From a virus: 50,657 bases of DNA. Made by a program: the position numbers and the translations under genes. Below are positions 31,342 to 43,310 of the stretch, piece by piece. Position 1 is the stretch's first letter; the number at the start of each line of letters is the position of its first letter. Under the pieces are notes generated by a model. That model was not told where the DNA came from. It worked only from the letters and a program-made list of their open reading frames with translations, and ran no database searches. The DNA lies in IMG/VR virus record IMGVR_UViG_3300012917_000005, positions 1-50,657 of that record; one strand, written 5' to 3'.

Positions 31342-31480
31342 CGTTTAAATATTTACAATCTCTAATAGGTTTCTCACATTCACACCAACCATTTAATAAT
31401 TTACAGTCAGAAGGTTGGCTGTTAACGTTGAATAAGAAATCAGTGTATGATTTGTCCAGTTCTGTTAATCTCGATGACAT
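31325..31480 (-). CDS. Small Cys-rich protein (possible zinc finger)
   Basis: A 51-residue product, ATG 31478-31480 to TAA 31325-31327, has cysteines in the pattern C-x7-C-x-C-x7-C (CKLLNGWCECEKPIRDC). It ends in an acidic tail, DEDEE. It overlaps the exonuclease-like gene by 41 bases and endonuclease I by 17. Four closely spaced Cys suggest metal binding, but this is inference only. Confidence 0.45.
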   Translation of the reverse strand: MSSRLTELDKSYTDFLFNVNSQPSDCKLLNGWCECEKPIRDCKYLNDEDEE

Positions 31481-32297
31481 CAGGTTTCCTTTCTACGTGA
31501 CTAAGGTATCTTGGTCCATCTGAGTAGAGGAAAGTTCGTAGTCTTGGGAAGCAACAGTGTTTGTACTGACTGTAGCTAGCTTTAACATCGAGTTTATAAT
31601 TGCCTGACTTTCCCTCAGGTAATACTCTACATGTACAAGCTGGCGCTCTGCTAAGTCCAACTGTTTCTTTGCACGATCTAATCCTTTGATGGATATGCTC
31701 TTTTCTAAATGAATGTTCATATAGTACCATATGTCCTAGTTGTTTGTCAATAGCTAATATGTATGCAGTGTCTTTTACCAGTACCAGATCGTCGTTAATA
31801 CTAGCGCCCATATAAGCGTCAAGTTGAGATAGATAGCCCCAATCGTCAATCGTGCTTTGATCTTTCCTTTTGAATTTGTCCATCCCACGGCTAGAGGAAG
31901 ATTTAACATCAACAATGTAGCCGTCGATAATGCAGTCTCTATGACCGCAGATATCATCGAGAACAAGTTCATCCTGCTCTCCCGTAACTGTATGTCCTGA
32001 AGCTTTGGCTAGAGTTATAGCTTGAGCCTCTATTATATGCCCAAAGGAGTATTTGAATTCTGCCCATGGTGGTAGAGGCTCGGCTAACTCTGGTGTATGT
32101 ATCGAATGCCATAAAGCTTTAGGACAGACAGGTCCTAGTTTAGACATTCTTAAAGATGGTCTATAGATATCGTTATATTGAGATTGTAATCTTTTGGTTA
32201 TGTTATTGGACAAATCCAGGGCTAGTTCATCCGTGAACCAGCCTCTGGTCGTCAATAGATGTTGTATATCGGTAACCAGAGTATCGATGTTTTTCAA
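31440..32297 (-). CDS. PD-(D/E)XK nuclease, Cas4/RecB-like exonuclease
   Basis: The 285-residue product has the RecB/Cas4-type nuclease order: GHIIE at residues 86-90, GHRDCIIDGYIVDVKSS at 118-134 (catalytic Asp, Asp and Lys132), and Q158-D160-AY. Phage enzymes of this group degrade or process DNA ends during replication and recombination. Several Cys residues (C58 and a later CTC) could form an iron-sulfur site as in Cas4, but I cannot demonstrate this. It clusters with the resolvase. Confidence 0.7.
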   Translation of the reverse strand: MKNIDTLVTDIQHLLTTRGWFTDELALDLSNNITKRLQSQYNDIYRPSLRMSKLGPVCPKALWHSIHTPELAEPLPPWAEFKYSFGHIIEAQAITLAKASGHTVTGEQDELVLDDICGHRDCIIDGYIVDVKSSSSRGMDKFKRKDQSTIDDWGYLSQLDAYMGASINDDLVLVKDTAYILAIDKQLGHMVLYEHSFRKEHIHQRIRSCKETVGLSRAPACTCRVLPEGKSGNYKLDVKASYSQYKHCCFPRLRTFLYSDGPRYLSHVERKPDVIEINRTGQIIH

Positions 32298-32555
32298 TTA
32301 TATTTGTATTCCTTTTATGTAGTGAAATAAGAGTAGGTATAATGCTAATTGACCTAAACCTGCTATTGGTGCAAATGCAGACATGACTACAAATGTCTGT
32401 GCTATTTCCAACCATTTATCCTTCTTCTTAGATGGTTCTGGTTTCTTGGCAGAATCTTTTATTTCCTTTTCAACAGTCTTCCAAAAGTCTATTGTTTCTT
32501 TCATCTGTTGAAGAGGACTTTGTTGAGGACCGAAAGGACTTCCGTATCCATACAT
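32298..32555 (-). CDS. Small membrane-associated protein
   Basis: An 85-residue product starts MYGYGSPFGPQQSPLQQMKE. GGAGG five bases before this ATG sets the start. A charged middle (SAKKPEPSKKKDKWL) is followed by a C-terminal hydrophobic stretch FVVMSAFAPIAGLGQLALYL. One or two membrane passes are likely. It lies immediately downstream of the giant RNA candidate. Function unknown. Confidence 0.5.
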   Translation of the reverse strand: MYGYGSPFGPQQSPLQQMKETIDFWKTVEKEIKDSAKKPEPSKKKDKWLEIAQTFVVMSAFAPIAGLGQLALYLLLFHYIKGIQI

Positions 32556-32582: not shown

Positions 32583-32600
32583 GGGGGGATGTGTCCCCCC
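32583..32600. terminator. G6/C6 hairpin downstream of the RNA block
   Basis: GGGGGG and CCCCCC surround a six-base loop (ATGTGT on plus), a very stable stem in an AT-rich genome. Neither side has a T-run, so a processing barrier or exonuclease block is as likely as termination. On the minus strand it lies about 80 bases after the last hairpin of the structured RNA and about 30 before the next gene. Confidence 0.45.
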
Positions 32601-32682
32601 AAACTTAAGGTGGTTGTTTGATTTGTCCAGAGTGCACATCATGTAACACGATTGCATCTCCATTAGTTAAAGTCCCGGACAT

Positions 32683-33824
32683 GAGACTCTAGAAGTCTCC
32701 CTACGGTAGACAACCGTCGAGACCTTGGCTCTTGTCGCGTAGGCCGGTATAGCTTTCCAACCTCGTAAGGGGATCGTCTTCCTGGCGATACGCTTCTCTA
32801 CATCGAGAGGTCTGATGTGTTTGTTCCAGGTTTACTCCCACCGAGTAGTTTTATGATGGGCGTTCCGGCTGGTTCGTTTCCCAGTCCCCGGTTATACCAG
32901 TGTACTTAACCACTGCGTCTCTTTAGATCATTCATCTGTTCATCACAGATCGGCGATCTCTGTAGAGTCTTCGATACTGAGACATCATTCCAGATGACAT
33001 TTTCACGCCTAATGGAAGCGCTAGTCAAACAGTCAAGATCAACTCTTCAGAAGAGTGTCTACTTGCTAATGATGTTACTGCTCAGTCTTTTCAGATCAAC
33101 ATCCTTGTTGAATACAGACCACAGGTTGTTCGGTCTTACAACATCTCTGGAGTTGCAATCCAGCGCATCCGATCACATGGTACTCGCTCTAAACCAATTC
33201 CGAGTTCGACACTTATCTGGTGTCCTCATGAGCGTACCGTTGCTTGTCTGCCACCGTGGCCATATCAAGGTTTAGATCTTACTTGTCCTAATACTAGATC
33301 GTACTTTCACTCAAGAAGGATTTGAACCTTCTATTTATACCAGTTAAGTCTGAGTTACTGTAAGGAGCTACACATCTCCTTAGGATACTAATATTAGTCC
33401 TGCTTATGCTTCTCTGTCAGTTAGACAGTGACTACGGTATCTCCACTAGTCCTTTGCCGTCTCACAGTTTGGACCCTGTGTTCTAGACTAAGCTGACTGA
33501 TCACGTCTGTCACCGGAGGTCTAGATTTGGATACGGTTCAGTCCTACTTCCTTATATTTTAACCTCCATGTAAGGATACACGGGCCTACTTAGCGCTCTC
33601 CTACTGTATAGCCCTCAAAAGCTAGTACGTTACTCACGTAAACGAACCGTGCCTTCCGTACATTTGTTTACAGGAGCGCTTATCGAGAGAGAGGTCATCA
33701 CTCCTCTGTTGGTCTCTTCCAAGGAAGAGCTGTGGATGTTTCTCCACTACTCTCGGATCTGTCTGCTGGCCACTCTCTGCCAGTATTATCTGAAGCTCGT
33801 TCGATTGGAGATCTTCTTGAGATC
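32683..33824 (-). ncRNA. Giant structured noncoding RNA candidate (GOLLD/ROOL-type)
   Basis: No convincing gene is present for about 1.1 kb, yet perfect hairpins lie almost end to end: 32683-32699, 32703-32717, 32898-32915, 32934-32950, 33042-33056, 33125-33142, 33147-33163, 33208-33224, 33361-33382, 33414-33428, 33463-33480, 33714-33729, 33732-33747, 33766-33783 and 33810-33824, and longer helices 33179/33238 and 33482/33525. Loops are purine-rich in the minus-strand sense (GATGA, GAAACA, AGAGAGTG, CUUG), matching flanking genes on that strand. GC content is visibly higher than nearby. Ends are approximate. The class name is inference; GOLLD and ROOL are large phage-associated RNAs. Confidence 0.65.
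33309..33355 (-). ncRNA. tRNA-like element lacking an anticodon arm, within the giant RNA
   Basis: In minus-strand RNA, ACTCAG (33355-33350) pairs with TTGAGT (33314-33309). Between them lie a D-loop-like stretch containing ACTGGTA and a perfect T-arm, GAAGG-TTCAAAT-CCTTC (33331-33315), whose loop is a canonical T-loop. No anticodon stem is present, giving about 47 nt instead of the usual 72 or more. It resembles the acceptor-T half of a tRNA or tmRNA. The flanking hairpins make it part of the larger structured block. Confidence 0.55.
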
Positions 33825-34006
33825 GGAGGACTTGCTTTCTCGACAATCTCAACAACCTCACAGATTGCACATTTCGAAGTAGTTGTATCGTTTAATTGTT
33901 TGGTAGCATATTCAATTGCCTCAGACAGTGTTGCTTTGCAACCAGGAGGTAAACCATTTTTTGATACATGTTTGATAACAACCACAGCATAGAATTTCTC
34001 GTTCAT
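33698..34006 (-). CDS. Hypothetical protein running into the RNA block
   Basis: The 102-residue frame starts MNEKFYAVVVIKHVSKNG. The first ~60 residues look like a compact domain (ATLSEAIEYATKQLND, then CAICEVVEIVEKAS). The last ~40 are Ser/Arg/Glu-rich and coincide with hairpins of the structured RNA, so the tail may be non-native coding. ATGA overlap with the upstream small gene supports the start. No family recognised. Confidence 0.5.
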   Translation of the reverse strand: MNEKFYAVVVIKHVSKNGLPPGCKATLSEAIEYATKQLNDTTTSKCAICEVVEIVEKASPPISRRSPIERASDNTGREWPADRSESSGETSTALPWKRPTEE

Positions 34007-34657: not shown

Positions 34658-35173
34658 CTAGAATAAAGGGTTATCAGCAGGCACCTTATTGAAGCCTCTG
34701 ATTTCCTTAGGGTCTCTCATATTATCCGATATCTTCGGATCGTAAGGGACTAATTTATCCACTCTAACAGAAACTAGTCTAGCTGCTGTTCCTCCCATCT
34801 TATTACCAGGAGGATTGTAACTATATGTCTCTAATTTAATAGTAACTTCAGAACCGTTACCTACGCCAGTACTTATCGGTAGATTGTTTTCGTCAAGTAT
34901 CATAGGTGCAGCATATAATCTACGTACACCTTTTACCATCTTCTCTGAAGGACAAGAGAAAGACATACTATCTCCATCTTCATCTCGTCTTAGTCTATTC
35001 TTAATACCTTCATATTGTTTTCCGTTTACAGTCTTAATCTCTTTCAATTTCTTAATCTTATTTAAAGACTCTTCATTAGGATAAAGTACCATAGCATACT
35101 TACCGTACATGTCTGGTACAGATACCCTAACCCATTTAGCTTTACCCTGTAGGTAAACGTTATCCGTAGCCAT
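34658..35173 (-). CDS. Single-stranded DNA-binding protein, gp2.5-like
   Basis: The 171-residue protein has the OB-fold pattern of podovirus SSBs: KAKWVRVSVPDMYGKYAMVL near the N-terminus and GNGSEVTIKLETYSYNPPGN, then GGTAARLVSVRVDKLVPYDP near the C-terminus. Unlike T7 gp2.5 the very end (KVPADNPLF) is not strongly acidic, though it keeps a terminal Phe. It should coat ssDNA and contact the polymerase and primase-helicase encoded nearby. Confidence 0.7.
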   Translation of the reverse strand: MATDNVYLQGKAKWVRVSVPDMYGKYAMVLYPNEESLNKIKKLKEIKTVNGKQYEGIKNRLRRDEDGDSMSFSCPSEKMVKGVRRLYAAPMILDENNLPISTGVGNGSEVTIKLETYSYNPPGNKMGGTAARLVSVRVDKLVPYDPKISDNMRDPKEIRGFNKVPADNPLF

Positions 35174-35334: not shown

Positions 35335-35483
35335 TATTTATTCTCCTGAATAAAGTTCCAAATATCTAATGCTTCTTTTTTAGCATCGTCTAAAGAAATC
35401 TTATCTACTCTTTGAGTTATGTAATCTATTAGATAGAATTCTTTCTTAAGTAAACGTCTACCCCAAAAGTCGTAATGATACAT
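35334..35483 (-). CDS. Hypothetical 49-residue protein
   Basis: A short helical, Lys-rich product (MYHYDFWGRRLLKKEFYLID) starts at ATG 35481-35483 within the polymerase stop (TAATG) and ends in the same way at the next start. Function unknown, but translational coupling to the polymerase is clear from the overlaps. Confidence 0.5.
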   Translation of the reverse strand: MYHYDFWGRRLLKKEFYLIDYITQRVDKISLDDAKKEALDIWNFIQENK

Positions 35484-37474
35484 TAATGTGTTACCTTCCA
35501 ATTTGTTCCTATTGTTTCTTTACCATCATTCATATAACTACCTGCTAGAGGACACTTAAGTCCGAACATTTCACCTACCTCTCTCAGCGAATCTGATGCT
35601 GTTTCAGCCATCCAACGAGCTTCTTCTAGATCATTGGATGGCATTTCTATTTGCCATTCATCATGGACTAAATTAACTAGGATCGGTTTATCAGACCGGA
35701 TAAATAATTCAGCAGAAGGATAATAGCCACCGCGAATATTACTTTCGATACTCCTTGCCACATCATTAGGGAGTGGTATGTGTCCATATCTCTTCTCCAT
35801 CTTCTCTAACCACAGAATTGTGGCATGTTTCATTACTACAGATTCACCGTTCTGAAGATAGCCAGACATTGCAAGATGCTTGCGTTCACTAAACGTATCT
35901 CCAGGTATCTTAACTCGTCTTCCATCAAGCCCAAAGAAGTAGCCTCTTTTAGCATCCTTGGGGATAATATATCTTTTAAGGTAAGCGAAGCCTTGGTAGC
36001 GCTGCAACAATCTTTCAAGAGCTTCTTCCGTTTCTCTCGCGGAACTCCCAAGGACTTCAGACAGTTTTCCAATGCCTGCTCCGAGCAACAAGGCGTAGAT
36101 GAACCGCTTAGCGGCGGCACGAGATTTACAAACAGGACCGAGTATTCGTTGATTGAGCGAATGAGGGTCCGTTTTTGTTTCTTTACTACCTTTGACGAGA
36201 GCATCTGTGAACTCCACATCATCTATGTAATGAGCAAATATTCTGAGTTGAATGCCTTCCGCGTCAACGCCAACGAGAAGCTTACCTTTAGGGACTCCGA
36301 AACACGAACGCATCTCCCCACCAAGTAACTTGATCTTACCTTGAGTATCAAGTTCATTGGGAATATTGGCCATATTGGGTCGTTGATGGGCCATCCGATG
36401 CGTCCATGCACCGATAGCAATAAATTTACCGTGGATCCTATTGGTCTGTGGATTATATAAGTCAGACCATTCGGTGAGAGTTCTACGTCTAGCTTCGAAG
36501 AGTATCCTTCTGGCAAGAGTACGAGCTGACTTCGGGGCGGTCTCGGGAAGGGTAGATATATTAGTCTCATTTATCTTCCACCCATATTTATCAAAATCTG
36601 CTTTCATTATTCCTTGTCTGTTGGCTTCGATGTGTGTCTTGGTCTTGTCGCTTGGTCGCCAGCCAGCCTTAGAAAGAACATCCACAATTTGTCTATGTGA
36701 GGATGGATTAAACTCTTGGTAGATACATCTACAAAAAGATCCCCCATTGTATTCCGAAAGATCGTTACTCTGTACCCAGCGGAAGTCTTTTCTATGAAGA
36801 GTCCCATGTTTGGTTAACTCTGGATTAATCTCTCTAATTAAAGTGAGATGCGGAGGAAAGGATTTAAGTATATCTTCATCTAAATTCTTTAATTCTAATG
36901 TTACTTTCTCAAGTAGTTTATTACACTTCTTAATATCAAAATAGAACCCATTACCGTGAAGAGAATTAACAATGATTTGGAACTTGTGTTCACAAGTAAT
37001 AGCATTCCTATACTTAGGATTATCGATGTCACTAAGATAGCTAAGGTAAATACACTCACAGATATCGACGTCTCTAATACAATACGTAACCATTTCTTCA
37101 GTAAGTCTAGACCAATCATTGAATTCTCCTTTAAGTAAGTTAAATTCAATACCATAGTCTTCTATTCCATGTCCTTTGCGCGAATAGTTACATAACTTAG
37201 AAATAATAAGGGTATCAATAATATTGATAACATCAATGCAATCATAAAACTGAATAAGATTACACAAGACAGGGTAATCATAACCAAGAATGTTGTGACC
37301 GACCAATCTTTTACATTTTTTAACCAAGGCTTTAAACTTCTCCACTTCTGTTTGATCTTCGTGGAGATTTCTAAATACATAATATTCTCCCGTAGCTATG
37401 TCTTTTAGAACGACACACCATATCTTGGTTGGATTATCTAATTTATCACATTCAGTATCAATTATTAATTGCAT
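35483..37474 (-). CDS. DNA polymerase I (family A) with 3'-5' exonuclease
   Basis: The 663-residue replicative polymerase resembles T7 gp5. Exonuclease motifs are DTE at residues 6-8, NILGYD at 61-66 and YCIRDVD at 131-137. Polymerase motif A is VDAEGIQLR at 403-411, motif B is KRFIYALLLGAG at 456-467, and motif C is HDE at 604-606. The position equivalent to E. coli Phe762 is Tyr460. No extra domain is seen. Processivity may come from a host thioredoxin-like factor as in T7, but the binding loop was not checked. Confidence 0.9.
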   Translation of the reverse strand: MQLIIDTECDKLDNPTKIWCVVLKDIATGEYYVFRNLHEDQTEVEKFKALVKKCKRLVGHNILGYDYPVLCNLIQFYDCIDVINIIDTLIISKLCNYSRKGHGIEDYGIEFNLLKGEFNDWSRLTEEMVTYCIRDVDICECIYLSYLSDIDNPKYRNAITCEHKFQIIVNSLHGNGFYFDIKKCNKLLEKVTLELKNLDEDILKSFPPHLTLIREINPELTKHGTLHRKDFRWVQSNDLSEYNGGSFCRCIYQEFNPSSHRQIVDVLSKAGWRPSDKTKTHIEANRQGIMKADFDKYGWKINETNISTLPETAPKSARTLARRILFEARRRTLTEWSDLYNPQTNRIHGKFIAIGAWTHRMAHQRPNMANIPNELDTQGKIKLLGGEMRSCFGVPKGKLLVGVDAEGIQLRIFAHYIDDVEFTDALVKGSKETKTDPHSLNQRILGPVCKSRAAAKRFIYALLLGAGIGKLSEVLGSSARETEEALERLLQRYQGFAYLKRYIIPKDAKRGYFFGLDGRRVKIPGDTFSERKHLAMSGYLQNGESVVMKHATILWLEKMEKRYGHIPLPNDVARSIESNIRGGYYPSAELFIRSDKPILVNLVHDEWQIEMPSNDLEEARWMAETASDSLREVGEMFGLKCPLAGSYMNDGKETIGTNWKVTH

Positions 37475-43223: not shown

Positions 43224-43310
43224 TGGTGCTCTCAGCCAGACTTGAACTGGCACGGTCATACGACCATCGGATTTTAAGTCCGATGCGTCTACCTATTTCG
43301 CCATGAGAGC
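43224..43310 (-). tRNA. tRNA-Leu (anticodon UAA)
   Basis: In minus-strand sense the acceptor GCTCTCA (43310-43304) pairs with TGAGAGC and is followed by an encoded ACCA end. The anticodon stem ATCGGA/TCCGAT carries the loop CTTAAAA (anticodon TAA at 34-36). A long variable arm (GGTCGTATGACC) and the T-arm GCCAG-TTCAAGT-CTGGC complete a class II leucine tRNA. UUA is frequent in this AT-rich genome, so the tRNA probably supplements host supply. Confidence 0.95.

Follow-up and report, generated by a model that had tools for sequence, protein, structure and literature searches.

A predicted large structured phage RNA with recurring hairpin modules and a conserved Pro-Pro-stop mini-ORF at its 3′ end

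Results

Genomic context and limits of the block

The window, i.e. the whole stretch of 50,657 nucleotides analysed here, carries on its minus strand, in 5′ to 3′ order, a DNA polymerase gene, small genes, a gene for a ssDNA-binding protein, further small genes, a block of structured sequence, one small gene and an exonuclease gene (Table 1). Over 32605–33697, the block aligns with four close relatives at 72–87% nucleotide identity. The original prediction had described a gene-free unit at 32683–33824. The lack of a believable gene was upheld for the block itself, about 1.1 kb, but not for 33698–33824, which is the C-terminal part of the upstream small gene 33698–34006 (an overlap of 127 bases). 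At the other end, position 32683 proved too short a limit: as the block terminates in a mini-ORF, the unit runs on to 32605. The announced enrichment in GC exists (0.43–0.48 against 0.37–0.43 in adjacent sequence) but is modest, and other genes of the phage equal it.

Table 1. Position of the features of the locus in the window
Feature	Coordinates	Strand	Basis
DNA polymerase gene, query used for the clade	35483..37474	minus	PHROG 17
gp2.5-like ssDNA-binding protein gene, upstream flank	34658..35173	minus	PHROG 112, E 1.4e-5
Small protein gene just upstream of the block	33698-34006	minus	reading frame retained in relatives
Structured RNA block (predicted), about 1.1 kb	32605..33697	minus	extends from the small-gene stop to the mini-ORF end
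Helix AGCGCUCCU/GGAGAGCGCU, likely the 5′ domain of the RNA	33592..33680	minus	consensus structure of five relatives
Module A, GGAGGTTAAAA (relatives: GGAGGCTAAAA), Shine-Dalgarno-like	33557..33567	minus	in other clusters too, between covarying stem sides
Module B hairpin, TCCGGTGACAGACG..ATCAGTC	33495..33517	minus	GAC/GTC to GGC/GCC exchange (both ways) across relatives
Helix ACUCAG/UUGAGU enclosing the T-arm-like hairpin	33350-33355 with 33309-33314	minus	consensus fold
tRNA T-arm-like hairpin GAAGG-UUCAAAU-CCUUC	33315..33331	minus	T-arm statistics and clade covariation
Module C, GGTGGCAGA	33247..33255	minus	recurrent in relatives
Module D hairpin GACAC-CAGAUAA-GUGUC	33208..33224	minus	nine genomes, exchanging stem pairs
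Anticodon-arm-like hairpin CUGGA-UUGCAAC-UCCAG	33147..33163	minus	relatives: stem UAUAG/CUAUA, pairing maintained
Module E hairpin ACGG-UUGUCUA-CCGU	32703..32717	minus	12 genomes
Final hairpin ahead of the mini-ORF, GAGUCUCAUGUCCGGGACU, module F-like	32668..32691	minus	consensus fold, shared motifs
Shine-Dalgarno of the mini-ORF, GGAG (GGAGG in close relatives)	32658..32661	minus	sequence
Mini-ORF, GTG start, 14 codons, MLHDVHSGQIKQPP-stop (CCA CCT TAA)	32605..32649	minus	conserved ending across the clade
Hairpin GGGGGG-ACACAU-CCCCCC, 4 nt past the mini-ORF stop	32583..32600	minus	no U-run; no match in terminator scan
Gene for a Lys/Glu-rich protein of 85 aa whose C-terminal segment is hydrophobic, proposed third piece of the cassette	32298..32555	minus	follows the mini-ORF throughout the clade
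Cas4-type exonuclease gene, downstream flank	31440..32297	minus	PHROG 1990, E 3.5e-20

Distribution of the block

A search with the nuclease gave four close loci and one with the polymerase 73 loci, mostly contigs of about 50 kb or fragments of such contigs; a later polymerase profile search gave 80 loci and was the source of the held-out contigs used below. The nearest named phages belong to the subfamily Cobavirinae of the Zobellviridae (Roseobacter and Lentibacter phages), with identities of about 30–38% for the polymerase and up to 63% for the terminase. Judging from the metagenome setting, the samples of the clade are presumably mostly soil. Nearly all loci with enough sequence display an ORF-free gap of 0.5–2.7 kb downstream of the polymerase gene. 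The block is conserved across polymerases down to about 44% identity, the predicted RNA measuring about 1–2 kb in the clade, and no DNA similarity of the block to named phages was found.

The genomes of the clade have tRNA-Leu and tRNA-Ile genes elsewhere. That of the window, a tRNA-Leu (UAA) at 43227–43310 (minus), is far from the block, and the same tRNA is found in relatives L016, L038, L044, L052, L060, L062, L063 and L077.

Structure and covariation

The dense perfect hairpins from which the original prediction started are well borne out. Dinucleotide shuffles of 32683–33824 (minus strand) yield 5.5 ± 2.3 non-overlapping perfect hairpins with stems of 5 bp or more, and the real sequence has 20. 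For stems of 6 bp or more the shuffles yield 1.5 ± 1.1 and the real sequence has seven; none of 200 shuffles attains the observed count at either length. Folding energy, suggested as a check, gave a mixed answer: the minimum free energy improves little on that of shuffles (z about −1.95, both strands alike), so that single-sequence energy alone is not decisive and the weight falls on covariation. This second suggested check came out positive, with both-sided changes in 51 pairs among the relatives, where column-shuffled alignments have 19. For the nuclease gene next to the block, taken as control, the observed and shuffled numbers are three and 11.

Entire stems are swapped within the block in the alignment of five close relatives, and their consensus fold contains helices with compensatory pairs across 33,680–32,668. 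Among these, helix 33382–33376/33367–33361 has six compensatory pairs and zero mispairs, while helices 33537–33530/33441–33434 and 32863–32855/32842–32834 have four compensatory pairs each. The covariation test scores both strands alike and so does not set the strand; the minus strand is assigned to the RNA because of the orientation of the T-arm consensus and because of the mini-ORF, both described below. The large structured phage RNA postulated on the minus strand is strongly supported by this conserved, compensating structure, and from the comparison of sequences we hold it almost certain that the minus strand encodes a conserved structured RNA from 33,697 to 32,605.

Recurring hairpin modules

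With the blocks grouped into 36 sequence clusters, 66 9-mers are common to at least six clusters, against 0–2 in shuffles. The most widespread shared word, GGTTCRANTCC, is the consensus of the tRNA T arm. It occurs 53 times in 84 kb on the RNA strand, never on the reverse strand, and three times in 221 kb of control sequence. The corresponding hairpins possess the 5-bp stem, the 7-nt loop and the residues of a tRNA T arm (G53 U54 U55 C56 R57 A58 N59 U60 C61), with A57 and A59 in the window; C56 is present in 57 of 62 relaxed matches. Their stems covary: in 46 distinct hairpins 93.9% of the cells are paired, 66 cells are changed on both sides against 20.8 ± 3.8 in shuffled controls, and covariation reaches 0.646 against 0.145. 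A single RNA may hold up to three or four such hairpins at varying positions, and 17 of 56 genomes are devoid of hairpins of the strict pattern.

A full tRNA cloverleaf with acceptor, D, anticodon and T arms was sought in the window block with Rfam and ARAGORN and rejected, only arm-like hairpins being present; in the blocks of the relatives ARAGORN gave almost no matches. A tmRNA, with tRNA-like domain and tag ORF, was found by neither ARAGORN nor Rfam. In L036, L037, L050 and L032, anticodon-arm-like hairpins with the loop NUGNAAY directly precede T arms, as if a partial tRNA had been retained.

The loop is fixed in each of modules B, D, E and F; the last three also have exchanging stems. 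In module B, whose general form is TCCGGTGRCAGACG..ATCAGYC, R and Y change together (17 genomes listed). The loop of module E, YUGUCUA, is closed by exchanging 4-bp stems in 11 of 12 genomes and by an imperfect one in the twelfth (L058), and module F corresponds to the word GTCTCATTARC. Modules D, E and F lie about 35 to 1,670 nt 5′ of the mini-ORF, the position of module D relative to it ranging from −35 to −1668. Fixed loops combined with changing stems and positions are what one would expect of parts that fasten a large tertiary fold together or recognise a shared partner. Module A is a perfect Shine-Dalgarno (GGAGG) set within a conserved hairpin and lacking a start codon; it could possibly be a second ribosome contact.

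In 84,980 bacterial and archaeal genomes the module B signature gave seven matches, all within ORFs and about as numerous as expected by chance. None of the seven has a Pro-Pro-stop mini-ORF nearby, and they show at most one stray T-arm sequence (L093).

A Pro-Pro-stop mini-ORF at the 3′ end

In 56 of the 56 discovery genomes with enough sequence, the block closes on its 3′ side with a mini-ORF whose last codons are Pro-Pro-stop; locus L064 was left out of this count as its sequence ends before the site. The mini-ORF has 11–33 codons and is preceded by GGAGG in half of the clade and by GGAG, AGGA or GAGG in the remainder. Arg (23 cases) or Gln (22 cases) comes before Pro-Pro in 45 of the 56 together, and the remaining peptide is unconserved. 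Among the 56, Arg is encoded by each of its six codons and the first Pro by each of its four, an exchange which implies that selection acts on the peptide. Such a mini-ORF is found in 3.3% of shuffled blocks. There is also a preference at the nucleotide level, the last Pro codon being CCT in 47 of 56 and the stop TAA in 55 of 56 while the first Pro codon is free. A 3′ motif, CCNCCTTAA, considered as an anti-Shine-Dalgarno mimic, was dropped, as it is the Pro-Pro-stop of the ORF with its exchanging codons.

The mini-ORF rule was applied unchanged to new contigs from the profile search. It identified a mini-ORF at the expected place in 17 of 18 held-out genomes, each time in a single reading frame, which in one genome offers two starts, the independent cases being somewhat fewer than 18 since some contigs are near-duplicates of each other. 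Thirteen of the 17 also have T arms, and none occurs on the reverse strand. The exception, the distant relative L160, has no block, its ssDNA-binding protein gene, two small genes and nuclease gene being packed together. Likewise, CRP-4 and CRP-5 have no block between their closely packed ssDNA-binding protein, small and exonuclease genes, and the examined stretches of CRP-4, CRP-5 and CRP-13 contain no Pro-Pro-stop mini-ORF. The joint absence of block and mini-ORF from the outgroups CRP-4, CRP-5 and L160 indicates that RNA and mini-ORF are gained or lost together. On this comparative evidence, translation of the Pro-Pro-stop ORF is very probable. The T-arm-like hairpins and the 3′ Pro-Pro-stop mini-ORF, the two most telling features of the locus, were both absent from the original prediction.

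The small membrane-protein gene downstream

Between mini-ORF and next gene lie 13–192 nt, frequently with a strong hairpin, which is weak or absent in L013, L018, L030, L047 and L073 and strong in other relatives. The next gene encodes a small protein, usually of 85–118 aa (71 in L014), with a variable N terminus, a Lys/Glu-rich middle and a hydrophobic C-terminal segment; in L048 and L077 such a protein is encoded by the next-but-one gene. A strict hydropathy threshold for membrane segments is passed by 44 of 55 of these proteins and narrowly missed by most of the others. No Pfam or PHROG family was matched. CRP-5 and L160 have genes of another type at the corresponding position. In about half of the genomes the N terminus of the small protein is rich in polyproline and tyrosine.

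Search for known RNA families

The original prediction had named GOLLD and ROOL as possible classes, and neither assignment held. At Rfam gathering thresholds the window contains only one tRNA, far away from the block, and the blocks of 11 relatives contain no match; relaxed searches gave chance matches only, for the block at E up to 10 and for L066 and L040 at E up to 5. The GOLLD covariance model (RF02032) has no match in the window, by direct search as well, nor in the 11 relatives at gathering. The ROOL model (RF03087) has none in the window or the relatives, its direct search being weak alone, with 0 of 14 control genomes matched, and the OLE model (RF01071) has none in a direct search whose control was also without match.

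Discussion

The locus described here appears to combine a large RNA with a short translated sequence whose end is its only fixed property. Termination in E. coli is disturbed by a C-terminal Pro-Pro, with cleavage at the stop codon and ssrA tagging of the chain as consequences (PMC3834316); the dipeptide is among those that favour trans-translation, and protein ends avoid it (PMC3985003). Since the Pro-Pro-stop alone is fixed in the mini-ORF and is kept in all members at the junction of RNA and message, it is best read as a programmed pause. A real ribosome pause at this stop is probable by analogy with the effect documented in E. coli, from which the host of this phage may differ.

We propose a cassette of three linked pieces, the RNA, its 3′ Pro-Pro-stop mini-ORF and the small membrane-protein gene, in which the pause would process or tether the RNA, and give this proposal an even chance. 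The RNA would be a patchwork of modules (T-arm-like, B, D, E and F) that may form parts of a tertiary fold or bind a common partner. Ribosomes would load at the Shine-Dalgarno of the mini-ORF, pause at its stop owing to the Pro-Pro end of the peptide and so occupy the junction between RNA and downstream message. The pause would most likely set the 3′ end of the RNA through stop-codon cleavage or retain the ribosome on the RNA, and the small protein may anchor the complex at the membrane. Assigning the pause to 3′-end processing or ribosome tethering is tentative; it would account for the joint occurrence of mini-ORF and RNA and for the variable downstream hairpin and spacing. Stable downstream structures suppress stop-codon cleavage in E. 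coli (PMC3834316), and the hairpin that follows the mini-ORF stop thus speaks against cleavage in the window itself.

The main rival to processing or tethering is control of the next gene by the pause. The block would then be a very long, purely cis-regulatory leader, in which a ribosome stalled on the Pro-Pro-stop leader peptide alters structure or termination and thereby controls the operon of membrane protein and nuclease, in the manner of TnaC or SecM. TnaC arrest also uses a peptidyl-tRNA-Pro at the stop codon (PMC3985003), and the mini-ORF immediately precedes the small protein gene, from which a strong hairpin often separates it. However, this hairpin is neither universal nor terminator-like, with no U-run in the window, and TnaC-like attenuation is down-weighted for that reason. 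Moreover, the spacing to the next gene varies, a modular RNA of 1–2 kb far exceeds the need of any leader, and the peptide 5′ of Arg/Gln-Pro-Pro is unconserved, unlike that of sensing arrest peptides. We consider a leader of this kind unlikely, albeit a serious contender.

The T-arm-like hairpins could also point to a trans-acting tRNA mimic, a decoy for tRNA-modifying enzymes or for tRNA-cleaving defence nucleases, the mini-ORF just marking the end of the RNA. The T-loops indeed keep the full tRNA consensus, with a frequency of C56 beyond the structural needs of a T-loop, and some T arms follow anticodon-arm-like hairpins. Yet there is no complete tRNA fold in the blocks, where Rfam detects no tRNA and ARAGORN almost none, strict T arms are missing in 17 of the 56 genomes, and the universal Pro-Pro-stop is left unexplained, which makes such a mimic improbable. 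A DNA-level element made of DNA hairpins, such as a replication origin or packaging site, would suit a position among replication genes and hairpins that fold on both strands; it is very improbable given the confinement of the T-arm consensus to the strand in the direction of transcription (53 against 0) and the apparently translated ORF in which the block terminates. A decayed tRNA array or other non-functional spacer, which the T-arm sequences and the tRNA genes elsewhere in the clade might evoke, is hardly credible, as stems maintained by compensatory changes already contradict decay, modules B, D, E and F are not tRNA and conservation extends over polymerases down to about 44% identity.

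Broadly speaking, this predicted RNA counts among the giant ornate RNAs, but neither sequence nor model assigns it to any of the families compared. GOLLD is likewise giant (over 800 nt), ornate and phage-encoded, and it is reported to bind ribosomes in pull-downs and sometimes holds tRNAs in a linker (PMC12286853). The RNA described here differs from it by its 3′ mini-ORF, to our knowledge without counterpart in GOLLD, and by modules that shift place between relatives. ROOL is a large phage RNA too, often near tRNAs, but measures about 0.6 kb and has no known Pro-Pro-stop ORF. A divergent GOLLD or ROOL, which similar size, phage origin and elaborate structure might suggest, is scarcely to be believed, as neither model matches the window or its relatives at a useful threshold.

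Other comparisons concern the companions of the RNA. OLE RNA works with a membrane protein (PMC12286853), OapA, and in our case a small membrane-protein gene comes directly after the block. OLE, however, is a bacterial RNA of about 0.6 kb, and the protein encoded here falls into none of the Pfam or PHROG families; that it might bind the RNA is conjecture. Like tmRNA, which is concerned with stalled ribosomes, the RNA would unite tRNA-arm-like parts and an ORF in one molecule, but it has no complete tRNA-like domain, and its ORF, equipped with a Shine-Dalgarno and a start of its own, terminates in a stall signal. With YbeL-PP and TnaC it shares a C-terminal Pro-Pro, or Pro, before the stop, which slows termination and can yield stop-codon cleavage (PMC3834316, PMC3985003); here, in contrast, the signal is the sole conserved part of the mini-ORF and is joined to a structured RNA of 1–2 kb. 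No description of such a cassette was found in the open-access literature. We know of no giant ornate RNA that carries a stalling minigene.

Returning to the cassette proposed above, its furthest extension would be a new class of giant phage RNA carrying its own ribosome, i.e. a particle of RNA, ribosome and membrane protein made during infection and built on exchangeable tRNA-arm-like and other loop modules; this we regard as possible but rather doubtful. For GOLLD, ROOL and comparable giant phage RNAs, no function is known to us. In the present clade, two proline codons that are universally conserved and simple to mutate would offer a probe of the part that stalling plays in the making or working of the giant RNA. 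As far as we know, a Pro-Pro-stop maintained by selection where a structured RNA ends would be without precedent, and the set of RNA building blocks would be extended by the recurring T-arm-like modules.
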